Shown piece after piece: positions 1,732 through 13,034 of a DNA stretch of 15,268 bases. The notes below the pieces were generated by a model. That model was given only the letters and a program-made list of their open reading frames with translations, made no database searches and had not been told where the DNA came from. This stretch comes from an uncultured Propioniciclava sp. (lineage in GTDB: Bacteria > Actinomycetota > Actinomycetes > Propionibacteriales > Propionibacteriaceae): positions 1 to 15,268 of the forward strand of contig CALMPQ010000039.1 of assembly GCA_937872005.1 (NCBI GenBank), read 5' to 3'. The translations under genes were made by a program, and so were the position numbers. How positions within the stretch are numbered: position 1 is the stretch's first letter; every line of letters begins with the position of its first letter.

Positions 1732-2436
1732 ACCCGGCACACCTACCACCACGGCGACCTGCCCGACGCGGTCATGGGCGCTGCCCTGGAGGAGATGGAG
1801 CGTGGGGACCGGTTCGCCGTCAACTTCAACCGCATCGCGCGCGAGCTCGGTGTCAGCCACAGTGCCATCTACCGGCACTTCCCCAACAAGCAGGCGTTGA
1901 TCGACGCCCTGGCCCGTCGCGGGTTCGAGCAACTGGGCTCCGACCTCGGTGCAGCGCTCGCCGAGCTCGAGGGCAGCGGGGCCGGCGCCCGCATCCGGGC
2001 GCTGGCCCGCACGTTCGTCGCCTACGCGATCTCGGAACCCATGATGTTGCGCCTCATGTTCTCGGGGGTGGCCACTGACCGGGATCGGGATCCGGACCTG
2101 CGGCAGGCCGCCCTCGGCACGATCGGGATGCTGCATCGGGAGGTCAAGCAGGCCGCGGCCGAGGGCTGGGTGCCGCGCGAGGAGGTCGGCGACGTGACCC
2201 GATTCTTCTGGGGCAGCGTGTACGGGATCGCCACGCTCAAGATCGAGGGCCAGTTCGAGGGGATGCTGCCCGACGATGCCGCCTTCGACCGCTTCGTCGA
2301 GCGTTCAGCCGACTGGCTCGCCCTGGGCGTCGGTCACCCGCCCGACGACGAGCTCCCCGAGGAATGGCCCCCGTTGCCCGTCAGCGGGCAGCAAAGCGGG
2401 GCGCCAACAACTCCATCTGTTCAAGGACCAGCTTGA
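1729..2436 (+). CDS. TetR/AcrR-family transcriptional regulator
   Basis: The 235-residue protein has an N-terminal TetR DNA-binding domain. The helix-turn-helix lies at about residues 33-52 (F-N-R-I-A-R-E-L-G-V-S-H-S-A-I-Y-R-H-F), followed by the family's P-N-K-Q-A-L-I-D-A-L helix. The C-terminal part, with an M-M-L-R-L-M-F-S-G segment, looks like a WHG-type ligand-binding and dimerisation domain; the ligand is unknown. I prefer the ATG at 1729 because the T-Y-H-H-G-D-L that follows is the usual start of such proteins. An in-frame ATG at 1699 would add ten residues with no family resemblance. Neither has a strong ribosome-binding site. The last 56 bases run into the 3' end of the convergent hsdR gene, so the final residues, a Gly/Pro/Gln-rich tail, are encoded antisense to hsdR. 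Confidence 0.85.
   Translation: MTRHTYHHGDLPDAVMGAALEEMERGDRFAVNFNRIARELGVSHSAIYRHFPNKQALIDALARRGFEQLGSDLGAALAELEGSGAGARIRALARTFVAYAISEPMMLRLMFSGVATDRDRDPDLRQAALGTIGMLHREVKQAAAEGWVPREEVGDVTRFFWGSVYGIATLKIEGQFEGMLPDDAAFDRFVERSADWLALGVGHPPDDELPEEWPPLPVSGQQSGAPTTPSVQGPA
2375..2390 (-). terminator. short stem-loop at the hsdR stop codon
   Basis: TGCCCG at 2375-2380 pairs with CGGGCA at 2385-2390 around a 4-base loop containing part of the hsdR TGA; one further G-T pair is possible. It lies at the convergent junction of the TetR gene and hsdR. The stem is short and has no T-run, so its role as a terminator is uncertain. Confidence 0.25.
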
Positions 2437-5400
2437 CCGCACCTGGTTGCTTGTCGGGCGGATAGTTGTGCTTCACCAGCAGTCGCTTGATGGACGAACG
2501 CAGCTTTGCTCGCACGTCGTCGCGCACCGTCCAGTCGGTCTTGACGTCACGCTGCATGATGGCGACGAGGTCGCGAGCGATCTGGCCGAGCACATCGTCG
2601 CCCATCACCTCCACGGCCGAGCGGTTCTCGGCTACCGCGTCGTACAGCGCCAACTCATCGGTTCCCAGCGGCGGCGTGAACCGCTCTCCGCGCCGGGCCT
2701 CTGCGGCAACTTCCTGGGCCAGCTCGATGAGCGCTTCGATCACTTGGGCAGCGGTGAGCTGGGAGTTGGCGTACCGCGCCATGAGTTCGGCGACGCGTTC
2801 GCTGAACGCGCGATGGCGGACGATATTGCCCCCCGTGACCCGGGAGGCCTCCGACAGAACCGCATTGCGCAGGGCTTCCAGTGCAAGTTGGGCGTTGCTG
2901 GCCGTCCGGGCCGCGGCGAGCACCTCGGGCGTGAGGGCGTCCAGTTCGGGTTTGGGCAATCCTGCGGCCTCGTACAGGTCGAGCACCTCACCTGAACTCG
3001 TGCTCCGCGCAATCAGGTCACCAAGCAGCCGGGCGATCTCCTCCGGCACGGGACGTCCGCTCGCCCGCCGCTCCTCGGCGTCGAACTTGGCCATGTAGAC
3101 GCGCACCTCTTCGTAGAACCGCACGGTTCCCCGAAGCGGGGCCAGCGCCTCATCGCCCGACGCCAGCGCCCACGCGCGCTGCAGTTGGCTGGCCTTGCGC
3201 CGATAGGTGGACGCCGTGGGCTCAGCCTCGTCGTCGCCCGGCCGCTGTTCGCGGAGCCAGTTCACCAGGCCTAGTGCCACCTTGACGTACTTGACCCCCT
3301 TCGACAGCCTTTGCTGCCAGCCGAAGGGCGCCGTGAGCTGGTCAAGTTCACCGGCGAGCTGCTGAACCAGCGCCACCGCCTCCTCGTGGGGGCGTCCCAT
3401 CGGTCGGCCCTCCTGGTCGGCCTTGGAATAGACGGCCAGGGCGGCTTGCAGGTTCTCGACCAGCGGGGCATACCCGACCAGCAGGCCGGCGTCCTTGCCG
3501 CGGAACGTGCGGTTCACCCGCGCGAGCGTCTGCATGAGCTGGGCACCCTGCTGGGGCCGGTCGAGGTACAGGGTGTGGAGGGGCGGGCTGTCGTAGCCGG
3601 TGAGCATCATGTCCTTGACGATGACGAGTTGCAGCTCGTCATCGGGGTTGCGCAGCCGTTCCTTGATGGTGGCGTTCTGGCTCTCGGTGCGGACGTGGTC
3701 GCTCACCGGGGGCTGGTCGGACGCCGACCCCGAGTAGACCACCTTGATGACGCCGGCCTCGATGGAATCCGAGTGCCACTCCGGGCGGCGTTGGACCAGC
3801 GCCGCGTAGAGGCGGGCGCAGATCTCGCGGGTCGCGCAGACGATCAGCGCCTTGCCGGGCACCTCGATCTGGGGGAGCATCGCGGTCGACCGGGCGTCCC
3901 AGTGCTCGAGGATGTCGTCGGCCAGCGTGGCGATGCGGGCGGGCGCGCCGTAGATGGCGTTGATCTTGGCGACACTGCGTTCGAGTTGGGCGCGCTCCAC
4001 GTCGTCCAAGCCCTCGGTGATGCGGTCAGCGGCGTCGTCGAAGTCGTCCTGGGTGACCCCGTCGGCGAGCGCGACCTGCACGAGCCGGGGCTCGAACACC
4101 ACGGGCACCGTCGCGCCGTCGGCGACGGCGCGGGAGAGGTCGTAGACGTCGATGTCGGGGCCGAACACGTTTCGGGTGTCGCGTTCGGGCAGGGAGATCG
4201 GCGTGCCGGTGAAGGCGATCAGGGTGGCATGCGGCAGAGCGTCGCGCAGGTGCCGTGCGTAGCCGTCGAGGTCGTCGTAGTGGCTGCGGTGCGCCTCATC
4301 AACGACGACGATGATGTTCCGCCGGTCCGACAACAGGGGGTGGGACGCCCCGGTGTCGCGCTCGGTCTGGGTGAGCCCGAACTTCTGCAGGGTGGTGAAC
4401 AGGATGCCGCCGGTGCGGCGTCCGGTCAGTTCGGCGCGGAGTTGTGTTCGGGTCTTGACGGCGAGGGGGCTCTCGGCGAGCAGCCCCGAGCGCTCGAAGG
4501 CTCCGAAGAGTTGCCCGTCGAGTTCCTTGCGGTCGGTGATGACGACCACGGACGGGTTTTCCAGCAGCGGGTGGCGTTGGACGAGGTGGGTGTAGAACTC
4601 CATCTCCAACGACTTGCCCGCTCCCTGCGTGTGCCAGACAACGCCGGCTTTCCCGTCGGTGCGGTAGGCGGTGATGGTCGCTGCGATGGCCCGGGCGACG
4701 GCGAAGTACTGGTGGGGTTTGGCCACGAGCTTGGCGATGCCGCCGTCGGTGACGGAGAACGACACGTAGTTGCGGGCGAGCTGACCGAACCGGTCGGTCT
4801 GCAGCAGCCCGGCACAGAGTGCTTCGAGTTGCGACAGGGCCTCGCCGTCGACACCTTCAGCGTCGGGCGGGTAGGGCGTGCCGTCCTCGTCGACGTACCA
4901 CGGGGCGTAGTGGTTGAGCGGCGTGAACGGCGTCCCGTAGCGCGCGAGGATACCGTCGCTGATCACGGTCAGAACACAGAACCGGAACGCCAACGGGAAC
5001 TCGCGCAGGTACGTCTGCAATTGCGCGTGGGCGGCCGCGAGATGGGCCTGTTCTGAGCCGGCCCGCTTGAGTTCGACGATGGCGACCGGCAGCCCGTTGC
5101 AGTAGAGCACGAGGTCGAACCGCCGTAGGCCCTCAGGGCGGCGGATCGTCACCTGGTTGGCGACCAGGTAGTCGTTATCGGCTGGTTCGGCGCTGATGAC
5201 ACGCAGCGTGGGACTCTGCTCGACACCATCGTCGTCGACGTAGTCGAGGCGATAGCCAGCGGTCAGCCACGCGTGGGCGCGCATGTTCTCGGTGATGGCA
5301 TCGGCGGAGCTGGGGGTCAGAATCTCCTCGCGCGCCTGCACCAACTGTTCATTCGGGACGCCGGGGTTGAGTCTGCGCAAGGCGTCCAGCAGGCGTCCGG

Positions 5401-5536
5401 GGATGGCGAGGTCCTCCCAGGTCTCGCGCTCCCCCGATCCGGGGGCGATGGCCTCACCGGTGACGGGGACCCACCAATCGCCGATCCATTCGAGGGCGTC
5501 AGCTTCGTGCATGGCTTCGGTGCCGTCGCGGGTCAT
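2381..5536 (-). CDS. hsdR: type I restriction enzyme, R (restriction and translocation) subunit
   Basis: HsdR cleaves unmodified DNA after ATP-driven translocation, in complex with HsdM and HsdS. The 1051-residue protein has an N-terminal PD-(D/E)xK nuclease (D141, then E155-L-K157), Walker A G-A-G-K-S at 305-309, DEAH at 413-416, T-G-T-P-I at 443-447 and a motif VI-like A-R-V-N-R at 672-676. The C-terminus is a helical region like that of other type I R subunits. The length is normal for the family and no motif is missing, so it looks active. I start it at the ATG at 5536, because AAGGAGGGG precedes it and it overlaps the upstream stop as ATGA. A longer frame reaching 5638 reads a tail with no family resemblance. 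It is the last gene of the operon, so it is translated after the methylation genes. Confidence 0.95.
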   Translation of the reverse strand: MTRDGTEAMHEADALEWIGDWWVPVTGEAIAPGSGERETWEDLAIPGRLLDALRRLNPGVPNEQLVQAREEILTPSSADAITENMRAHAWLTAGYRLDYVDDDGVEQSPTLRVISAEPADNDYLVANQVTIRRPEGLRRFDLVLYCNGLPVAIVELKRAGSEQAHLAAAHAQLQTYLREFPLAFRFCVLTVISDGILARYGTPFTPLNHYAPWYVDEDGTPYPPDAEGVDGEALSQLEALCAGLLQTDRFGQLARNYVSFSVTDGGIAKLVAKPHQYFAVARAIAATITAYRTDGKAGVVWHTQGAGKSLEMEFYTHLVQRHPLLENPSVVVITDRKELDGQLFGAFERSGLLAESPLAVKTRTQLRAELTGRRTGGILFTTLQKFGLTQTERDTGASHPLLSDRRNIIVVVDEAHRSHYDDLDGYARHLRDALPHATLIAFTGTPISLPERDTRNVFGPDIDVYDLSRAVADGATVPVVFEPRLVQVALADGVTQDDFDDAADRITEGLDDVERAQLERSVAKINAIYGAPARIATLADDILEHWDARSTAMLPQIEVPGKALIVCATREICARLYAALVQRRPEWHSDSIEAGVIKVVYSGSASDQPPVSDHVRTESQNATIKERLRNPDDELQLVIVKDMMLTGYDSPPLHTLYLDRPQQGAQLMQTLARVNRTFRGKDAGLLVGYAPLVENLQAALAVYSKADQEGRPMGRPHEEAVALVQQLAGELDQLTAPFGWQQRLSKGVKYVKVALGLVNWLREQRPGDDEAEPTASTYRRKASQLQRAWALASGDEALAPLRGTVRFYEEVRVYMAKFDAEERRASGRPVPEEIARLLGDLIARSTSSGEVLDLYEAAGLPKPELDALTPEVLAAARTASNAQLALEALRNAVLSEASRVTGGNIVRHRAFSERVAELMARYANSQLTAAQVIEALIELAQEVAAEARRGERFTPPLGTDELALYDAVAENRSAVEVMGDDVLGQIARDLVAIMQRDVKTDWTVRDDVRAKLRSSIKRLLVKHNYPPDKQPGAVKLVLEQMELLAPRFAAR

Positions 5537-6633
5537 GGCCCCTCCTTGGGGTCTGAGAGTTCGGCTTCGAGCTCTTCGATGCTGGGCAGTGACGCCGCCA
5601 GCTCGGCCGGCAGGTCGGTCGTGAGCTCGGACGCCCACTCGGCCACACCCATCGGGTGGGTGTGACCGCGCAGCGCGTACTCAGCAACGACGCTGTTCTT
5701 GCTCCGGCACAGCACCAGGCCAATGGTGGGGGCGTCGCCCTCTGTGGCGAGCAGTTCGTCGGCGGCCGCCAGGTACATGTTGAGCTGGCCGAGATCACGG
5801 GGGTCGAACGGCGTGGCCTTGAGCTCGATGATGACGAAGCACCGCAGGCGGACGTGGTAGAAGACGAGGTCGCACACGAACTCGTCACCGCCGAGCACGA
5901 GCCTGACCTGCCGCCCGTAGAGGGCGAAGCCCTGCCCAAGTTGGAGCAGGAAGTCGGTGACGTGGTCGAGCAACGCTCGTTCCAGATCTCGTTCGAGCTT
6001 GGTTTCCGTGACGGACAGGAAGTCGAACAGGTAGGGATCCTTGGTGAGCTGTTGGGCGAGTTCGCCGTGCGGGCCGGGGATGGCCTGGTCGAAGTTCGTG
6101 ATCGCCTTGCCGGCACGCTCGTGCAGGCCGGTCTCGATCTGGTGGATGAGGACGCGTCCGCTCCAGCCCTCGTGGGCGGCCTGGGCCGCATACCAGAAGC
6201 GCTGATGCTTGTTGGGTACGCGATCAAGCAGCGCGAGTTGGTGGTACCACGGCAGTTGTGCAAGCGGCGCTTGCACAACCTTCTCGTTCGACCAGGCGTC
6301 CGCGAACGCCCGCATGTACTTGAGGTTGCGGGGCGAGAAACCCTTCGCATCCGGAAAGGCCTCCCGGAGGTCGGCCGACAGCCGGTCGATGACCTTGGTG
6401 CCGTAGCCCTCACGGTCTTGTCGGGCGAGGATCTCACGGCCGATGTGCCAGTAGGTGAGGACGATTTCACTGTTGACCGACGCAAGCGCCCGCTGTCTCC
6501 CGGTGGCGACGCGGTCGCGCACGGACGCCAGGAGATCGCCGTACCACTCGGGCATGGACGCCCGCTGGGGCGTGGCAGGGAAGCCGGACTCGGGAGCGGG
6601 GGCGTCCCCGGACGGGATCTTCCCGGGCGTCAC
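5533..6633 (-). CDS. DUF1016 (YhcG-type) PD-(D/E)xK nuclease
   Basis: The 366-residue protein has the two parts of the DUF1016 family. The N-terminal helical domain (about residues 28-185) includes Y-W-x-I-G-R-E-I and Q-L-P-W-Y-H. The C-terminal PD-(D/E)xK nuclease domain (about 190-320) has D255, E270-L-K272 and Q283 in Q-L-N-M-Y-L. The full catalytic set is present, so it should cut nucleic acid; the substrate is not known. Such genes are often found near type I restriction loci. Here it lies inside the operon, with a GTG start overlapping the hsdS stop (GTGA) and its own stop overlapping the hsdR start (ATGA). GAGGAGG precedes the GTG. About the first 27 residues are Pro/Ala-rich and probably disordered. 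A 25-bp perfect palindrome lies within the coding sequence at 6255-6279. Confidence 0.9.
   Translation of the reverse strand: MTPGKIPSGDAPAPESGFPATPQRASMPEWYGDLLASVRDRVATGRQRALASVNSEIVLTYWHIGREILARQDREGYGTKVIDRLSADLREAFPDAKGFSPRNLKYMRAFADAWSNEKVVQAPLAQLPWYHQLALLDRVPNKHQRFWYAAQAAHEGWSGRVLIHQIETGLHERAGKAITNFDQAIPGPHGELAQQLTKDPYLFDFLSVTETKLERDLERALLDHVTDFLLQLGQGFALYGRQVRLVLGGDEFVCDLVFYHVRLRCFVIIELKATPFDPRDLGQLNMYLAAADELLATEGDAPTIGLVLCRSKNSVVAEYALRGHTHPMGVAEWASELTTDLPAELAASLPSIEELEAELSDPKEGP
6255..6279. repeat. 25-bp perfect palindrome inside the DUF1016 gene
   Basis: Arms GTTGTGCAAGCG (6255-6266) and its exact reverse complement (6268-6279) flank a single central base. In the - strand transcript this can fold as an 11-bp stem with a 3-base loop. 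A 10-bp palindrome, GTGGTACCAC, lies just beside it at 6241-6250. The sequence encodes the V-V-Q-A-P-L-A-Q-L segment of the DUF1016 protein, so coding needs explain some of it, but 12 matched pairs of mixed composition are unlikely by chance. Confidence 0.8.
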
Positions 6634-7838
6634 AGTGCCTCCTCGACCCTATGCTCGGCGTCCTTGACGCGGAGCCGACCAGCCATCAACTCTGGGAGCA
6701 GCGTGTCCCGCAGGGCGGCGAGGGTGCGGTTCTCATCCCGGGCTTGCGCCAACCGAGTAAACAGCGCCGTGGCCAACTCCCCGAGTTCACGGAAGCCCTC
6801 GTCGGGTGGCAGGAGCATCTCGTACTTCGCGAGGTCGGCGGCAGCGACGCGCTGCCGTCCTGAGGTCCCGGTCATGTGTAGTGCCGCATGGGTCCGGAAT
6901 CCCTCATCCGTTGCCAGAAGGTAGCTCACAGACTTGGCAATACCCCGTCGGCTCCTCATCACCACGAACTCTGTAGAACCTACCCCCACCTCGCCGGCTT
7001 CAAGGAAGTCAACGAACCCGGTCTTGCGATTCTCGAGGCAGGGCGTGATGCGGGCTAAGAGAGTATCCCCGTTCATGAACCGGGCGCCGCCTGCCACGGC
7101 CGGCCGACTCCCCCAATCGCGGATGACGCTGTCCGCGGTTGGGAGCTTGTTCATGTCGACGAAAGTGATCGGATCAAGGGGCGCACTGCACCGCGGATTG
7201 AAGTCAATCAGCTCAGATATTTCGCGAGGTCCGGCGCTGGGCAGGTCGGAGAGCCGAGCCAGATGGGCTCGGAGTAGTCGCTCGACGCTCCCATTGGGGG
7301 CTTCATTGGCGGCGATCTTGTCGTCCAGCGCTCCGAGGACCTCGGCGATACCCACTTGCTCCCGAAATGCGGGAACTGGCAGGGGTACCTGCCCGAGAAT
7401 GCTCGTGTTGAGGTTGAGCATCGTGGCTCCGACCGCGTGCCGCCGGATCCAGGTTCGCGCATCTTCCGTACCGAGCGCATAGGAAACGAACCGCGAGTCG
7501 GCGCGATCTCCGACACGGACCCGAAGACAACCCGTCCCGCACAACCAACCCTCTTGTTCAGGACGCACCCACGCCCGCTTCTCCACATCACCGCGCCGCG
7601 AGTACACGATGTCTCCAGCGATGAGCCGGTGCTTCGTGAGGCGTTCCGCATCCACATCGCTCACTCGGGCGATCCCCTCAGCACTCAATGAGTTCTCACG
7701 GATGTTCTGAGGCATCACGCTGGGGATGCCGTCCTCGACGTAGTCCGCCGCGTGCAGTTGGCTTCCGAAGGGCCCGGTCTGGATACCACCACCGCCGCGG
7801 CGACACAGCTCCCCCAGCGTCACCATCTCGAAGCTCAT
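6630..7838 (-). CDS. hsdS: type I restriction-modification specificity subunit
   Basis: HsdS recognises the bipartite DNA target for both methylation and cleavage. The 402-residue protein has two target-recognition domains (TRDs). TRD1 (about 1-160) contains the G-D-I-V-Y-S-R-R-G-D turn and ends in L-N-L-N-T-S-I-L-G-Q-V-P-L-P-V-P. A conserved spacer helix follows at about 160-198. TRD2 (about 205-345) contains F-M-N-G-D-T-L-L-A-R-I-T-P and ends in L-L-P-P. A second conserved helix finishes with L-L-P-E-L-M-A-G-R-L-R-V at 380-391. The length is normal for a two-TRD subunit. The target sequence cannot be read from the protein. The ATG overlaps the hsdM stop (ATGA) and has little ribosome-binding site of its own, so translation is probably coupled. 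No internal inverted repeat suggesting phase variation was seen. Confidence 0.93.
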   Translation of the reverse strand: MSFEMVTLGELCRRGGGGIQTGPFGSQLHAADYVEDGIPSVMPQNIRENSLSAEGIARVSDVDAERLTKHRLIAGDIVYSRRGDVEKRAWVRPEQEGWLCGTGCLRVRVGDRADSRFVSYALGTEDARTWIRRHAVGATMLNLNTSILGQVPLPVPAFREQVGIAEVLGALDDKIAANEAPNGSVERLLRAHLARLSDLPSAGPREISELIDFNPRCSAPLDPITFVDMNKLPTADSVIRDWGSRPAVAGGARFMNGDTLLARITPCLENRKTGFVDFLEAGEVGVGSTEFVVMRSRRGIAKSVSYLLATDEGFRTHAALHMTGTSGRQRVAAADLAKYEMLLPPDEGFRELGELATALFTRLAQARDENRTLAALRDTLLPELMAGRLRVKDAEHRVEEAL

Positions 7839-9460
7839 CCCAAACGCCCCAACTGTTCCCGGACGACCTGCGCCAAGCGTTCTGACTCGTCGAACTGCGC
7901 CAGCAACTCGGCCGTGAACGAGTCGATCCGTGCCGCCACTTCGGCCGGGTCCACCTCGACCTCGGCAGCGCCCACATAGCGCCCCGGTGTGAGGGCGTAC
8001 CCGGCGTCCTTGATCTCGGCGAGAGCCGCCGAGCGGCAGAAACCCGGCACGTCGGCGTACTCCAAACCCTTCCCCCGAGCCGAGTCAGTCCCCCGCCACG
8101 CGTGGTAGGTGTCGGCGATCTGGGCGATGTCGGCGTCCGAGAATGCCCGGTTCGCGCGGTCGACCATGTGGCCCAGCTCCCGCGCATCGATGAACAGCAC
8201 CTGACCGCGCCGGTCGGTGGCCCCTTGCTTGCCCGCCGACTTGTCCATGGCGAAGAACCACAGGCACACGGGAATGCCGGTCGACCGGAACAACTGCGTC
8301 GGCAGGGCCACCATGCAACTCACGAGGTCGGCGTCCACGATCTCGGCGCGGATTGCACCCTCACCGCCCGAGTTCGACGACATCGACCCGTTGGCCAACA
8401 CCACGCCGGCCGAACCGCCGGGCGCAAGGTGCGACAGGATGTGCTGCAGCCACGCGTAGTTGGCGTTGTTCGCCGGCGGGACGCCGTAGCGCCAGCGTCC
8501 GTCGCGCTCATTGCGCGCCCAGTCCTTGATGTTGAAGGGTGGGTTGGCGAGAACGTAGTCAGCCTTCAGCCCGGGGTGCAGGTCGCGCGCGAAGGTGTCG
8601 CCCCAGACGGGCCCCAGATCGGCTCCGATGCCGTGGATCGCGAGGTTCATCTTCGCCATCCGCCAGGTGCGCTCGTTGAGCTCTTGTCCGTACACGTGGA
8701 CGTCCTGGGGGTGGCGCCCATGCGCCTCGACGAACTTCTCGGTCTGCACGAACATGCCGCCCGACCCGCAGCAGGGGTCATACACACGCCCTGACAAGGG
8801 CTCCAGCACCTCGACCAGCACCCGCACCACCGAAGCGGGGGTGTAGAACTCGCCGCCGCGCTTGCCCTCGGCCGCCGCGAACTTCTCCAGGAAGTACTCG
8901 TACACCTCGCCCAGCAGGTCGCGCGCCTTCGTGGCGCCCTGGCCGGTGAAGCGTGCGTTGTTGAACAGGTCGATCAGCTCGCCGAGGCGGCGTTGATCCA
9001 CGCTGCTGGAGTTGAAGATGCGTGGCAGCGTGGCCTTGAGCGCTGGGTTGGCGTCCATGACCAGATCCATCGCCTGGTTGACCCGCACCCCGATGTCACC
9101 GGCCTTGGCATTGCGCGCCAAGGACGCCCAGTGCGCGTCAGACGGGATCCAGAAAACCCCAGCAGAGGTGTACTCGTCGATGTCGCCCACCAGGGCCTCG
9201 ATCTGCTCCTCGTTGTACCCCTGCCCGCCGAGCTCGGCAGCGATCTGCTCCCGGCGCTCGTCGAAGGCGTCCGAGACGTACTTGAGGAAGACCAGGCCGA
9301 GAATGACGTCCTTGTACTGCGAGGCGTCCATGGAGCCCCGCAGCTTGTCGGCCGCCTTCCACAAGGTGTCCTTCAACTCCTTGGCCGACGTGGGCGTCTG
9401 CGGCTCGGCAGCCTTCTTCGGACGCCCCCGGCGCGGCAGGGCGTTGGGCAACAGGGTCAT
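7835..9460 (-). CDS. hsdM: type I restriction-modification N6-adenine methyltransferase subunit
   Basis: HsdM transfers a methyl group from AdoMet to adenine N6 at the site chosen by HsdS. The 541-residue protein has an HsdM N-terminal helical domain (about 25-170) and then the methylase core. The AdoMet-binding motif D-P-C-C-G-S-G-G is at 228-235 and the catalytic N-P-P-F at 306-309, with G-E-F-Y-T-P at 203-208. All are intact. Near the N-terminus, R-G-R-P-K-K at 11-16 resembles an AT-hook. I chose the ATG at 9460 because GAGAGGA lies just before it and it overlaps the upstream gene's stop as ATGA; a longer frame to 9490 has nothing to recommend it. It is second in the operon, between protein X and hsdS. 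Confidence 0.95.
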   Translation of the reverse strand: MTLLPNALPRRGRPKKAAEPQTPTSAKELKDTLWKAADKLRGSMDASQYKDVILGLVFLKYVSDAFDERREQIAAELGGQGYNEEQIEALVGDIDEYTSAGVFWIPSDAHWASLARNAKAGDIGVRVNQAMDLVMDANPALKATLPRIFNSSSVDQRRLGELIDLFNNARFTGQGATKARDLLGEVYEYFLEKFAAAEGKRGGEFYTPASVVRVLVEVLEPLSGRVYDPCCGSGGMFVQTEKFVEAHGRHPQDVHVYGQELNERTWRMAKMNLAIHGIGADLGPVWGDTFARDLHPGLKADYVLANPPFNIKDWARNERDGRWRYGVPPANNANYAWLQHILSHLAPGGSAGVVLANGSMSSNSGGEGAIRAEIVDADLVSCMVALPTQLFRSTGIPVCLWFFAMDKSAGKQGATDRRGQVLFIDARELGHMVDRANRAFSDADIAQIADTYHAWRGTDSARGKGLEYADVPGFCRSAALAEIKDAGYALTPGRYVGAAEVEVDPAEVAARIDSFTAELLAQFDESERLAQVVREQLGRLG

Positions 9461-11496
9461 GCGGATTTCCTCTCCACGGTCACAGAACACAGGCCAGCCC
9501 CCAGCGCGCTGGCCAGGGTCGACATCAAGTCATGGGTGGCGCCCAAGGCATCCTCGAGCAGGCGCTGCCGCTCGGCCAGGGCAGCCGCAGCCTCGGAGGC
9601 CTCTCGGATCACGCCGGGTGGCAACAGGGTGATGGGCCACCGGCGCCAGTCCTGGGACTGGGCGGACGCGAGGGCCAACCCAGCGGCCAACCAGGCGGGC
9701 ACCAGACGCTGCGGCTTGGGCTCGTCGGCCCTACCCTCGGCATGAGCCCGGATCTGCGCCTCGGTCGGTATGTGGCACCGCAGCACCCGCGAGGGGGCCG
9801 CGACCACGAGACCGCCGCTGTCGTCGAGGAGAACGATGGGGGCGCCTCGAGTCGAGAAGATGAGATCACCGGGTTCGGTGACTCGTAAGTGCTCATGCGC
9901 ACCGAGGGCCCTGAAGGTGAGGCCGGCCAGGTGGTCCCGCGAACGCAGCTCACGGGGATCCCGCAGGACACCCACATCCGGTGTCGGAACCAGATCGCTG
10001 TCACTGAGCGAGGCACCCCGGATCAGGGTCACGTGACCCAGATCCACCGCCTCACCCAGGGTGATCCGTTGCACCAGACCCGGCGACTCGTTGGGGACCA
10101 CGGACAGCGCCCACCCATTGCTCACCGGTCGCGACACGGCCGGGACCAGGTCGTCCAGCAGTCGGGGCAGGCCGCGGGTTGCCGTCATGCGCGCATCCAG
10201 ATGGAGGGCCACGAGGTCGCCGTCGGCCATCACCAACTCGGCCTGACGCACGAACCGGCCGGGGGCGGCGTGGCCACGCCGCTCAGGACGCCCGACCAGG
10301 GACGCTGCGATGTCGTCGACCAGCGCGGACGGGTTCTGGGTGAGGGGTGCCGAAACATCCGCGCAGTAGGTCTCGGCGGGGTCGTGGGCAGGGCCCAACA
10401 CCCACATGGCCGTGCGCAGCGCCGGATTGCTCGGCAGCAACCCAGCGGGCAGCCGCACGATGGCTCGCGTGAACCCCGACTGCAGGGCCTGACGCCTCTC
10501 CTCACCCGCCGGCGTCAGCGGGACGCCCGACGCAGGGGGCCGCCCGGGGCGCACGACCCGCAGCGGGCCGGTCAGGGCCGACGCCGCGCCCACGACGACG
10601 GCGCGCATGCTGGTCGAGCACTGCAGGGTCAGTTCGTTGAGCCACGCCAGATCGGCCTCGCGATCGTTGTCATCGAGGCGGACGACCAAGACTGCCTCCT
10701 TCGGCAGGCCCGTCCCGTCGCCGGCTTCGAGCGTCGACGCCCGGACGCCGTGGGTGGCCAGCCAGCGCCGCGCCAAGCGCGCCTCCCTGTCGGACGCCTC
10801 CCCGAACAGTGCCAGTGTGGTGTGGGGGCGCTCTTCCAGCCAATCGGGCAGGTTGGCGAGCAGCACGAGATCGCGGGCGCGCGGCAGGCACAGGACCGGC
10901 GCTTCGAAGCCAGCCTCATCGGCAGCGCTCATGGCCACGTCGAGAACGAGGTCGGCGAACGCAGCGGCCACCCTGACCGACCCCGGCGCATCCGGCGTGC
11001 GGCGCGATCTCAGCAGGGCGTCGAACGGCTCTGCGGCGTCCATTGCGCCCCGCACGAGCAAGGACGCATAGGCCGACAACCGGCCAAGATCATCGCCCAA
11101 CGCCTCGACCTCGCGGCGCAGGAACTCATCGTCCGGGTCCCTCTCGTCGGCCAGGTCGAGGAGGTCATCGGGGTCACCCGGGAGCGGACCCGTGAGCGCC
11201 TCGAGACACAGCAGCGCCGACAAGCCGCGGAAGAGTCCGGTGTCCGCCAGGACCCGACGACCCGAGAACTGGAAGGCCACGGCGTCCTCGGCGGCGCGGG
11301 GGTTGCGACCGAGGCCGGTGCGGGTCAGCCACGCCACCACGTCGGCGCAGGAGAAGAACTCTTGGCCACCCTCGCGATTCACAGGATCGGGGAAGGGATC
11401 ACGTTGCGCGCGCCGCATGCGCCAGTTGGTCACGACCGGGCGCCCGACCTGCGCCAGCAACGCCACGTCGGCCAGCGACACCAAGTCCTCAACCAT
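9457..11496 (-). CDS. protein X: winged-helix, degenerate methylase-like and HsdS-like protein leading the operon
   Basis: The 679-residue protein is first in the operon. Residues 5-60 look like a MerR/excisionase-type winged helix (S-L-A-D-V-A-L-L-A-Q-V-G-R-P-V-V-T-N-W-R, later C-A-D-V-V-A-W-L), as found at the front of many actinobacterial N6-methylase-like proteins. Residues 75-400 follow the layout of such methylases (R-G-L-S-A-L-L-C helix; A-R-R-W-L-A-T-H-G-V at 242-251; R-A-I-V-R-L-P-A-G at 344-352). However, no D-x-x-x-G-x-G and no N-P-P-Y/F is present; V-V-R-L-D-D-N-D sits where the catalytic motif would be expected. Residues 410-679 resemble an HsdS half: G-D-L-I-F-S-T-R-G at 543-551, then a helix of about 630-665. 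It is probably catalytically dead and acts in DNA binding or complex assembly. GGAAGGAGG precedes the ATG. The domain reading is inference from motif spacing. Confidence 0.65.
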   Translation of the reverse strand: MVEDLVSLADVALLAQVGRPVVTNWRMRRAQRDPFPDPVNREGGQEFFSCADVVAWLTRTGLGRNPRAAEDAVAFQFSGRRVLADTGLFRGLSALLCLEALTGPLPGDPDDLLDLADERDPDDEFLRREVEALGDDLGRLSAYASLLVRGAMDAAEPFDALLRSRRTPDAPGSVRVAAAFADLVLDVAMSAADEAGFEAPVLCLPRARDLVLLANLPDWLEERPHTTLALFGEASDREARLARRWLATHGVRASTLEAGDGTGLPKEAVLVVRLDDNDREADLAWLNELTLQCSTSMRAVVVGAASALTGPLRVVRPGRPPASGVPLTPAGEERRQALQSGFTRAIVRLPAGLLPSNPALRTAMWVLGPAHDPAETYCADVSAPLTQNPSALVDDIAASLVGRPERRGHAAPGRFVRQAELVMADGDLVALHLDARMTATRGLPRLLDDLVPAVSRPVSNGWALSVVPNESPGLVQRITLGEAVDLGHVTLIRGASLSDSDLVPTPDVGVLRDPRELRSRDHLAGLTFRALGAHEHLRVTEPGDLIFSTRGAPIVLLDDSGGLVVAAPSRVLRCHIPTEAQIRAHAEGRADEPKPQRLVPAWLAAGLALASAQSQDWRRWPITLLPPGVIREASEAAAALAERQRLLEDALGATHDLMSTLASALGAGLCSVTVERKSA

Positions 11497-11663
11497 GGAT
11501 TCCTCCTTCCCTTGGTCAAGATCATGCTCCCTCGACGCGCGGTTGTCGATTGCATTCTGCTTCTAACTATGCAAACAGGGGTTTTCATTTTTTGTGCTTG
11601 CCCCGCCATCCGCCAGGCGTGACATTGGTGTCGGCCGAACAACCCCGAGAAAGGACATGCGCC
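11497..11663. promoter_or_regulatory. divergent promoter region between protein X and the coiled-coil gene
   Basis: This 167-base region separates two divergent genes and is clearly more AT-rich than its surroundings at about 11540-11610. It holds a dyad, TTGCAT at 11550-11555 and ATGCAA at 11569-11574, separated by 13 bases. TTGTCG at 11543-11548 and TAACTATG at 11564-11571 could be weak -35 and -10 elements for the + strand, with short spacing. The - strand also offers TAGTTA-like -10 candidates. Individual promoters cannot be fixed by eye. Confidence 0.5.
11550..11574. promoter_or_regulatory. TTGCAT-N13-ATGCAA dyad, candidate operator
   Basis: The two 6-base arms are exact reverse complements with centres 19 bases apart, close to two helical turns, a spacing suited to a dimeric regulator. 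The dyad lies in the AT-rich core of the divergent region and could control both directions. The winged-helix of protein X is one possible binder, by inference. Confidence 0.35.
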
Positions 11664-13034
11664 ATGACCAGCATCACCCGCCCCCGAGCCCGCTTCGAAG
11701 CGACCGGGCCCAGCCTCCACATCGAGGCGCTCACCATCACTAACGACGCCGTGCTGCGCGAGTGCCGGCACTGGGCGACGGGCGAACGCGGCCCCGCCGC
11801 GGACGCAGACGCCCTGGCCGGTGCCGACCTCACCAGCTTCGTGATGCAGGCGATGACCATCGGTGCAACCGCACTCACGACCGCCGGCACCACCCAGACG
11901 TCCTACTCGGTCGAGAACCTCATTGCGGACGCCGAGAAGCGCTCCACCGCTGCCTCCGAACTCGCCACGCAGCAGACCGCGAAGGCCGTGGAGACGGCGT
12001 CCAAGACGCTCACCCAGGCGACCGCCGACACGGCCAAGCAGGTGGCCGAGTCACTGGAGAAGGCGACCGCGGAGGTCACCCGCGAGATCGGTCGTCTGGT
12101 CGGGGGCGAGGACCCTGAGCTGATGCGCCGTCTTCAGCCCCTGCTCGAGACGACCATGCAGACGATGAAGGAGGCCACGCTGAAGGACACCGCGGGTCTG
12201 CTCGACAAGGTCGCCCGCCAGTTCAACCCGGCCGACCCCGCGTCTCCGATGGCTGTTCAGATGCGGACCCTGACCGAGGCCCAGGAGAAGCAGGCCGAGG
12301 TCTTCACCGCGGAGCAGAAGGCACTCATGGGCAAGATCGACGAGCTCGCGGCCGCCATCAGGATCAAGCAGGCCCACGATCATGTGGTGGCGTCGACCGC
12401 CCTCAAGGGCGTCACGTACGAGGAGGGCGTCCACGCAGCCCTGTCCGATCTGGCCGCGGGCCTGGGCGACGAGTACCACGAGACGGGCACCATCACCGGC
12501 CTCAAGACCCGCAGCAAGAAGGGCGACGGCGTCCTGTCGCTGCAGGGCGGGGACACCAGGGTCGTCATCGAGATGACCGACTCGGCACGTTCTCGTTGGA
12601 CCGACTATCTTCGGGAGGCCGAGGAGAACCGCGGAGCGCTCGCGTCGCTCGGGCTCGCCAGGTCCACCGACCAGTTGGGGGGCCAGACCCTGCTCGTTCT
12701 TGGGCCGCGTCGGCTGGTCCTCGCCTACGACCCCGAGTCTGACGACACGCAACTGCTGCGCTGCGCACTCCTGCTGTTGCGTCAGGCGGCCGAGACCGCA
12801 GCGAGCCGGGTCGATTCTGGCGAGATCGCCACGGCTGACGAAGCGCTGGCCGAGGCGGTGGCGAAGCTCGAACACCTCGGCCGCATCAAGAAGAGTGCGG
12901 GCACGATTCGGCGCGGCGTGGATGCGATCGAGACCGATGCCACCACGTTGCAGACCGAACTCCTTCGGCTGCTGAGCAAGGCGCGGAGCGTTCTCGCGGG
13001 AGTGCCCCTGGACGCCGGCGCCCCCGCAGCCTGA
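11664..13034 (+). CDS. coiled-coil protein with a PD-(D/E)xK-like C-terminal domain, divergent from the restriction operon
   Basis: I do not recognise a named gene. The 456-residue protein has a small N-terminal region, a long Ala/Thr/Glu/Lys-rich helical stretch (about 85-240) that should form a coiled coil, and a globular domain at about 247-380. That domain reads G-V-T-Y-E-E-G-V, G-D-E-Y, K-K-G-D (285-288), R-V-V-I-E-M-T (299-305), then E-E-N-R-G-A. This is the layout of DUF2130-like restriction-nuclease folds, in which K-K-G-D and E-x-K form the active site, but here E303 is followed by M-T, so the usual Lys is missing. A final helical segment (about 385-445) follows. The ATG at 11664 is chosen because GAGAAAGGA lies just upstream; the open frame from 11550 adds a Cys/His-rich tail with no resemblance. 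It may be a DNA-binding or structural partner rather than a nuclease. Confidence 0.65.
   Translation: MTSITRPRARFEATGPSLHIEALTITNDAVLRECRHWATGERGPAADADALAGADLTSFVMQAMTIGATALTTAGTTQTSYSVENLIADAEKRSTAASELATQQTAKAVETASKTLTQATADTAKQVAESLEKATAEVTREIGRLVGGEDPELMRRLQPLLETTMQTMKEATLKDTAGLLDKVARQFNPADPASPMAVQMRTLTEAQEKQAEVFTAEQKALMGKIDELAAAIRIKQAHDHVVASTALKGVTYEEGVHAALSDLAAGLGDEYHETGTITGLKTRSKKGDGVLSLQGGDTRVVIEMTDSARSRWTDYLREAEENRGALASLGLARSTDQLGGQTLLVLGPRRLVLAYDPESDDTQLLRCALLLLRQAAETAASRVDSGEIATADEALAEAVAKLEHLGRIKKSAGTIRRGVDAIETDATTLQTELLRLLSKARSVLAGVPLDAGAPAA

Follow-up and report, generated by a model that had tools for sequence, protein, structure and literature searches.

A methylase-like protein that has apparently lost catalysis is a probable transcriptional controller of a type I restriction-modification subtype in Actinomycetota

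Introduction

The best-known control of type I restriction acts on protein, through degradation of HsdR, and control at the level of transcription is known from a few small regulators. The C proteins of type II systems are small stand-alone helix-turn-helix (HTH) proteins, usually with paired operators. Encoded together with a restriction system, these HTH regulators activate their own promoter from upstream (PMC12707154, PMC3874152, PMC5282649). In the type I system of Mycoplasma gallisepticum, the cited text describes binding of HsdC to direct repeats (PMC12707154). RptR, whose gene opens a type I locus, is described as a 9-kDa alpha-helical repressor, conserved in gammaproteobacteria, that binds palindromes in its own promoter at sites overlapping the -10 element (PMC12255303). 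In M.SsoII-type methylases, an N-terminal regulatory region on a DNA methylase is reported to regulate the enzyme's own system (PMC3978073).

We analysed a stretch of 15,268 nucleotides from an uncultured Propioniciclava sp. (the window), in which a gene, here termed X, precedes hsdM. Comparative sequence analysis suggests, with a probability of roughly 0.7, that X is a dedicated transcriptional controller, probably an activator, of a type I restriction-modification subtype in Actinomycetota. C proteins and HsdC resemble X in being HTH regulators encoded with a restriction system, a role predicted for X at its own promoter. However, X is a multidomain protein of 679 aa and therefore falls outside the C protein family; its excisionase-like HTH sits on a dead methylase body, and its palindrome has a 6-nt spacer. 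The candidate operator of X also differs, as a palindrome, from the direct repeats of HsdC. RptR and X are both first genes with a promoter palindrome, but X is built differently and has its operator 5' of the promoter. Unlike the cytosine-5 methylase M.SsoII, X belongs to a type I system, as a fusion of HsdM-like and HsdS-like parts that is apparently inactive. Controllers of type I systems have been described before, in HsdC and RptR; a controller with a dead methylase as its body appears to be new. In many actinobacterial families, the switch of a type I subtype appears to have arisen from a dead modification enzyme. The analysis gives a likely role to mostly nameless proteins, provides a sequence marker of the subtype, and opens a concrete route to the question of how cutting is postponed when a type I system moves into a new host.

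Results

Gene organization of the X locus

The operon order in the window is X-hsdM-hsdS-YhcG-hsdR, with a divergent gene beyond X:

9457..11496, minus strand, gene X, 679 aa, HTH plus dead HsdM-like core plus half HsdS
7835..9460, minus strand, hsdM, catalytic motifs present
6630..7838, minus strand, hsdS
5533..6633, minus strand, YhcG/DUF1016 nuclease-like gene between hsdS and hsdR
2381..5536, minus strand, hsdR, likely ATG at 5536 overlapping the YhcG stop
11664..13034, plus strand, divergent gene Dv, no known family

An earlier note on this DNA had described X as the first gene of the operon, coupled to hsdM by an ATGA overlap, and the sequence bears out both points. The note had proposed surveying whether X homologues recur just upstream of hsdM, and had named homologues found mainly away from type I loci as the contrary outcome. 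X lay directly 5' of hsdM in 70 of 78 loci, the position expected of a controller encoded with its system, and the contrary outcome was not encountered. Dv was divergent to X in 12 of 71 loci.

For the HsdM family of the window, X was directly upstream for 16/16 HsdM matches at ≥65% identity and 0/16 matches at ≤59% identity had an adjoining X match; up to 12 candidates were scored per genome, and a missing X match does not prove that X is absent. Within this hsdM clade, 11 loci without X were fetched, and their stretches of 12-18 kb contained no intact hsdR (G023, an X-less HsdM at a contig edge, lies outside the fetched loci). On the HsdM tree, five changes are needed to account for the X-less, R-less rows; the tree also includes L148 (52% identity, long branch), which is not one of the 11. 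hsdR fell below the threshold used in 11 of the 71 X loci: six lie near contig ends (L041, L060, L156, L182, L185, L188), L180 and L184 are truncated in the sequence retrieved, and L173, L174 and L193 had no hsdR within about 7 kb. The tie of X to one HsdM clade and its joint absence with hsdR would also fit a structural or alternative specificity subunit, considered below with the exchange data.

The X family

The 71-locus set comprised loci with an X of >550 residues and a strong HsdM hit. Set A1 comprised P0001 and 51 of 54 homologues; the three omitted were a 394-aa fragment, one partial protein and the hit with the weakest score. At least 44 loci were listed. Judged by substitution rates, X is a genuine actinobacterial family under purifying selection, with dN/dS of 0.13-0.30 in 12 X pairs. 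These values, together with a window reading frame of 701 codons stop-to-stop, ruled out X as a pseudogene. Proteins of the family are at present mostly nameless.

Domains and catalytic state of X

Four regions were delimited within X:

11311..11484, minus strand, excisionase-like winged HTH, residues 5-62 (secondary structure in the predicted model and weak profile matches)
11413..11442, minus strand, recognition helix, residues 19-28 (predicted model; operator covariation)
10189..11268, minus strand, HsdM-like fold without motifs I and IV, residues 77-436 (fold and motif comparison)
9499..10161, minus strand, half HsdS, residues 446-666, one target-recognition-like domain and a long helix (model and profile match)

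This arrangement agrees with the winged helix, methylase-like core without AdoMet or NPPY motifs and HsdS-like C-terminus read earlier from the sequence. In the structure prediction that had been proposed, X residues 76-669 matched the fold of 7eew_A (~11% identity), an intact methyltransferase of Vibrio vulnificus YJ016, with motifs I and IV absent from X and the X HTH outside the match. The half-HsdS profile match at the C-terminus had an E-value of 1.6e-9. X thus has the recognition domain and conserved helix of HsdS in one half only; its single domain does not correspond to the two recognition domains of HsdS that are exchanged between relatives. The HTH gave weak profile matches to phage excisionase/regulator families (E 1e-3) and to PDC-M06B (E 1.4e-4), and folding of the HTH alone gave a poor model (pLDDT 60.5). 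The predicted model of X, these weak matches and the covariation described below point to the DNA-binding HTH expected of a controller.

When the X family profile was compared with sequences of solved structures, only weak matches were obtained: the top two were aminopeptidases (E 0.003-0.005), and 2okc, a type I M protein, had an E-value of 0.028. hhalign of X against HsdM aligned 58 columns (probability 2.8, E 0.016). Because these matches are weak, the kinship of X with HsdM rests on the fold and on two intact fusions, L050 and L051. These solitary actinobacterial HTH-N6 methylase fusions have the domain order of X and are matched by the X profile over nearly their full length (93-96 bits); in contrast to X, they have catalytic motifs and a Pfam N6_Mtase match, and the palindrome found upstream of X is absent from both loci.

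The window X had no match to Pfam N6_Mtase and lacked motif I at its expected place. A working methylase whose intact motifs had been misaligned, the other contrary outcome named earlier, was not encountered, and we consider this explanation extremely improbable. It could draw on a DPT-G remnant kept in many homologues, on a motif I pattern at its expected place in 6/71 X and on a Pfam N6_Mtase match in 1/52 homologues (E 3.6e-5); however, the motif IV pattern was absent in 51/52 homologues, and the single match sits beyond the expected place. The PADLOC mad1 profile (a MADS component) matched 2/52 family members (best E 3.4e-5).

A conserved palindrome upstream of X

A palindrome, TGATAA-N6-TTATCA, lies 5' of X in the family. 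Of 71 loci, 56 had the exact core GATAA-N6-TTATC within the 250 bp preceding X, and a single operator was seen per X promoter. When spacers of 0-15 between GATAA and TTATC arms upstream of X were compared, only 6 recurred; 15 was found once. Elsewhere in the same X loci (1.39 Mb) there were 7 further copies of the core, and 344 kb from 20 X-less hsdM loci contained none. No similar palindrome was seen at the 10 readable loci among 13 further HTH loci (the HTH was not located in 3). A second upstream motif obtained by expectation-maximisation was weak (477 vs 389-423 for two shuffled sets).

Across 394 genomes, 19 exact TGATAA-N6-TTATCA sites were found: 11 at X starts (two of these X being fragments), one just after hsdR of an X locus, and 7 elsewhere. 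Neither X nor an hsd gene was seen at the 4 of these 7 sites that were inspected. The X search in these genomes scored 2 candidates per genome, and a missing X match does not prove absence. A site was also present in G402, an X-less genome of a further set, in which X and hsd genes were not found. Such sites would be expected if the palindrome belonged to an unlinked general regulator and X were a passenger of the operon. We regard this as very unlikely, given that 12 of the 19 sites are at X loci, that the X of Mumia quercus without hsdM (L033/L162) retains the palindrome and X-less hsdM loci are without it, and that operator changes follow the X recognition helix.

Upstream of the window X, two sites were located:

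11570..11587, no strand assigned, candidate operator TGAAAA-N6-TTTGCA (read on the minus strand), diverged, ~6 bits against the family operator model
11521..11549, minus strand, promoter-like site TCGACA-N17-CATGAT

The operator arms are identical in the same-genus locus L059, and the spacer differs. Both loci have only this diverged operator, and a best match with 3/12 mismatches in 250 bp can arise by chance. A conserved operator at the controlled promoters is a property of the X family, the window itself having a weak, diverged candidate.

Promoter geometry and operator copies at hsdR and hsdM

A -10-like TAnnnT was present 30-34 nt past the operator in 59/71 loci and 42-43 nt past it, about one helical turn more, in 5 further loci; neither spacing was present in 7/71. 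The background elsewhere was 11 in 4615 positions. No conserved -35 element was evident in X promoters. The -10 of the window starts 42 nt past the candidate operator, roughly a helical turn farther than in most loci, and both the window and L059 have CATGAT instead of TAnnnT.

Where hsdR was ≥2.5 kb from hsdS, an operator preceded hsdR in 8/13 loci, and the other 5 had no site before hsdR; with a smaller gap, the count was 0/48. Similarity to hsdR began beyond the site in 8/8 such loci. TAnnnT followed 31-33 nt after the site at 6 of the 8 (the other two lack a -10), and the same spacing was found in L184, in which hsdM is 6.8 kb from X and has its own operator site.

Repressors usually overlap the promoter, and a fixed spacing is needless for them. 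The operator of X lies upstream of the -35 position, at a fixed and apparently helically phased distance from the -10, with no conserved -35 evident, which argues against X being a controller that represses. In that case X would hold the operon down through the palindrome until infection brought release, the mode of action put forward for gammaproteobacterial RptR. There are precedents: RptR, encoded at the head of a type I island, is a repressor (PMC12255303), and HsdC appears to repress its own type I operon (PMC12707154); we nevertheless consider repression by X unlikely.

Covariation of the HTH with the operator

The strongest covariation of operator base 3 was with X residue 21, in the recognition helix. 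Ranks 1, 2 and 4 among 584 variable X columns went to residues 21, 18 and 20, all in this helix or at its edge; this ranking draws on 5 loci that are in part related. When all 9 deviating loci were included, residues 21 and 18 remained in the lead, but 12 of the top 16 columns were then in the dead methylase domain.

Proposed regulation by X

X probably goes back to a one-piece HTH-methylase-recognition-domain protein, or has a common ancestor with one, and has lost catalysis. The conserved palindrome in the X promoter suggests that X became the master switch of the defence system. The X HTH would bind TGATAA-N6-TTATCA and its variants, probably as a dimer, at promoters that lack an evident -35; from the bound palindrome, the start point would be ~53 bp downstream, or one helical turn farther. 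Bound X would most likely recruit RNA polymerase and turn on its own operon, X-hsdM-hsdS and often hsdR, as well as promoters of hsdR or hsdM located apart from it and, in certain lineages, the divergent gene. Such positive autoregulation could delay restriction after entry into a new host and then start it abruptly, like type II C proteins.

A 600-residue methylase body is needless for a bare controller and is left unexplained by this model. We also considered X as a sensor that couples methylation state to transcription. The dead body would still read DNA, or dock on HsdM/HsdS complexes, without modifying the DNA; occupancy would then set operon activation, and the cell would gauge protection of its genome before making the cutting subunit. 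We think this improbable.

Sequence exchange in X and HsdS

The earlier note had listed a sensor, a regulator, an alternative specificity subunit and an assembly factor that swaps with HsdS as candidate roles of X. Operator, spacing and covariation now favour the regulator, and alternative specificity with HsdS-like exchange is less likely: in 24 listed pairs with HsdM ≥90% identical (rounded), HsdS was 25-62% identical, and the X domains were 34-100% identical, declining roughly together. Alternative specificity was accordingly rejected as the main role, since exchange limited to the X recognition domain was not clear, although the domain was lower in a few pairs. A structural or alternative specificity role, in which X would join HsdM/HsdR as a subunit through its HsdM-like core and half HsdS, is also unlikely, despite a fold like a fusion of HsdM with an HsdS half and the clade and hsdR associations noted above; it also leaves the operator, its copies before hsdR and hsdM, and the HTH covariation unaccounted for. 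A controlling X may have a subunit role besides. In L164/L173 and L173/L182, identity was 34-35% in the X recognition domain and 50-53% in the rest of X, which may reflect limited exchange in these pairs.

X is a degenerate methylase at the head of a type I operon

X had been described in the earlier note as a degenerate methylase/HsdS-like protein encoded first in a type I operon, and this description was right. Structure prediction from a 52-row alignment, followed by structure comparison, placed an HsdM fold at residues 77-436; a small helix-turn-helix (HTH) was predicted at the N-terminus, and profile comparison revealed half an HsdS at residues 446-679. X had no Pfam match above the cut-off and no NCBIfam match, and the catalytic motifs were gone from the window's protein. 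The operon was tightly packed in the order X-hsdM-hsdS-YhcG-hsdR, with four-base overlaps between neighbours (9457-9460, 7835-7838, 6630-6633 and 5533-5536) and clear family matches for HsdM, HsdS, YhcG and HsdR. The features discussed are:

9457-11496, minus strand: X, 679 aa, first gene of the operon
5533-6633, minus strand: YhcG/DUF1016 nuclease-like gene between hsdS and hsdR
11664-13034, plus strand: Dv, ~456 aa, no known family, divergent to X
11570-11587: diverged operator candidate, weak family-matrix match (~6 bits)

YhcG-like genes occupied the same place in several relatives (L040, L059, L158, L165, L166, L181, L186 and L191).

Relatives were compared in a set of 71 loci with X longer than 550 residues and a strong HsdM match. 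The motif I pattern was kept in 6/71; in these (L042, L043, L048, L176, L177 and L196) an AdoMet-motif-like sequence stands at the motif I place, and therefore some members may still bind AdoMet. Solitary HTH-N6 methylase fusions with the domain order of X are encoded at L050 and L051; their motifs, SPPF and DPSCGHG, are intact, and both match Pfam N6_Mtase (E 3e-35 and 8e-33). Across 12 close pairs, dN/dS was 0.13-0.30 for X and 0.02-0.18 for HsdM, with X the higher in 11; for HsdR it was 0.05-0.26 (10 pairs). Where HsdM was at least 90% identical, X domain identities averaged 77, 76, 76, 71 and 76%, indicating roughly even divergence, with the recognition domain least conserved.

X accompanies hsdM and tends to be lost with hsdR

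Among 7987 candidates scored, drawn from 5.8 billion proteins, 54 relatives were identified. A scan of one genome per species revealed at least 44 loci; the record titles were actinobacterial for 43 of them, and the other was labelled Sporosarcina. In this last locus (L173; Bacillota), HsdM grouped with Arthrobacter, which points to transfer or contamination. Some X-profile match was present in 90 of 394 genomes, many over the HTH alone in large ORFs. In a compilation of 78 loci, including the window and with one duplicate removed, hsdM similarity began -67 to +73 bp from the end of X in 70; hsdM lay further away in three and was missing from five (three ending at a contig edge, one with truncated X, and one solitary X in Mumia quercus). 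Across 97 genomes of the window's family, X was present with 16/16 HsdM at ≥65% identity and beside 0/16 at ≤59%.

A quick-method HsdM tree of 91 rows united the 8 X-less rows that have hsdR in a single group (support 99). The 12 rows lacking both X and hsdR lay among the X rows, requiring five changes. Eleven loci lacking both X and intact hsdR were fetched from the close hsdM clade (L134-L144); two kept hsdR fragments (L135, L137) and one an X remnant of 114 aa (L134). This tree placement and these remnants indicate that X tends to vanish along with hsdR in this clade.

A putative palindromic operator precedes X

A search for inverted repeats in the DNA preceding X brought out a single element, (C)TGATAA-N6-TTATCA(G), here termed the operator. 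Its exact core, GATAA-N6-TTATC, was found in 56/71 loci; spacers of 0-5 and 7-14 never occurred upstream of X in this set, and spacer 15 occurred once. In 13 of the remaining 15 loci the best match differed at one to three of the 12 positions; the other two, L067 and L183, had a symmetrical TGTTTA form. Three-mismatch matches, including the window's, can be due to chance. The exact core was absent from 20 X-less hsdM loci totalling 344 kb and had seven further copies in 1.39 Mb of the X loci: three before an hsdR distant from hsdS (L154, L157, L160), one before an hsdM separated from X (L184), one before an SMC/AAA-type gene downstream of hsdR (L047/L199), another at a different place in L184, and one at the extreme end of L180. 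The SMC/AAA-type gene is:

L199, 4204-6750: SMC/AAA-type gene after hsdR, with its own operator copy and the usual -10 spacing

At a weight-matrix threshold of 13 bits or more, a site preceded hsdR in 8/13 loci with hsdR ≥2.5 kb from hsdS and in 0/48 with a smaller gap. In all eight, hsdR similarity started 94-209 bp past the site. Six other matches outside X promoters were in L044, L047, L156, L180 and L184 (twice, one at hsdM).

Forty selected genomes, 28 carrying X and 12 lacking it, contained 21 exact full sites: 19 lay at X starts, one followed hsdR in the X locus of G267, and one was in an X-less genome. Across 394 genomes there were 19 such sites, of which 11 lay at the start of X, one in G267 and seven elsewhere. 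G017 and G316, among the genomes with sites at X starts, had X as fragments. The G017 locus (L019) matched X over the first ~110 residues only, directly before hsdR and with the operator still there, as if the middle of the operon had been removed by deletion.

Promoter geometry and a candidate binder

A -10-like TAnnnT started 30-34 nt past the operator in 59/71 loci and 42-43 nt past it in a further five, against 11 in 4615 positions elsewhere. Of the last seven loci, the window and L059 (same genus) had CATGAT at 42 nt, L038 CATCGT at 32 and L196 TAAAAT at 40; three had no convincing candidate. The 31-33 nt spacing was kept at 6/8 hsdR sites and at the L184 hsdM site, and no -35 element stood out. 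An activator needs fixed, helically phased spacing without a -35; the spacing here is fixed and apparently phased, and we therefore infer that the operator geometry fits an activator.

X itself carries an HTH, and the operator is kept even without hsdM, making X the candidate binder. Half-site base 3 was T instead of A in five loci. Among 584 variable X columns, residue 21 split the two types completely (Ala in 5/5 T-type, never in the other 66), followed by residues 18, 398 and 20. Residues 18, 20 and 21 lie within or at the edge of recognition helix 19-28, and residue 398 in the methylase domain. The five T-type X proteins are relatives of one another, at 39-52% identity in the listed comparisons; L037, one of them, is closer to an A-type locus (60%) than to the other four.

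Published work describes restriction systems with their own regulators (C proteins, HsdC, RptR; PMC12707154, PMC3874152, PMC5282649, PMC12255303), type I systems included (PMC12707154, PMC12255303), and regulation by the N-terminal region of M.SsoII of its own system (PMC3978073). Neither an HTH-dead-methylase controller of type I systems nor the TGATAA-N6-TTATCA palindrome appeared in the titles and abstract starts of the best-ranked open-licence matches (best 8-20 of up to 806 on broad queries).

The window's candidate operator and divergent genes

The window's operator is plausible, not established, because its matrix match is weak. Compared with L059, its arms were unchanged, whereas the spacer and much upstream DNA differed; a promoter-like TCGACA-N17-CATGAT follows it.

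Dv was divergent to X in 12/71 loci. In other lineages, divergent membrane or lipoprotein-like genes lay upstream of X (e.g. L181, L179, L071), in families of 22, 14 and 12 loci; the L071 member is a DUF4352 protein. On the opposite strand, 23 TAnnnT elements were found at 31-33 nt among the 71 loci, often with a divergent gene on that side, and these membrane/lipoprotein-like genes may share the palindrome as well as a mirrored -10.
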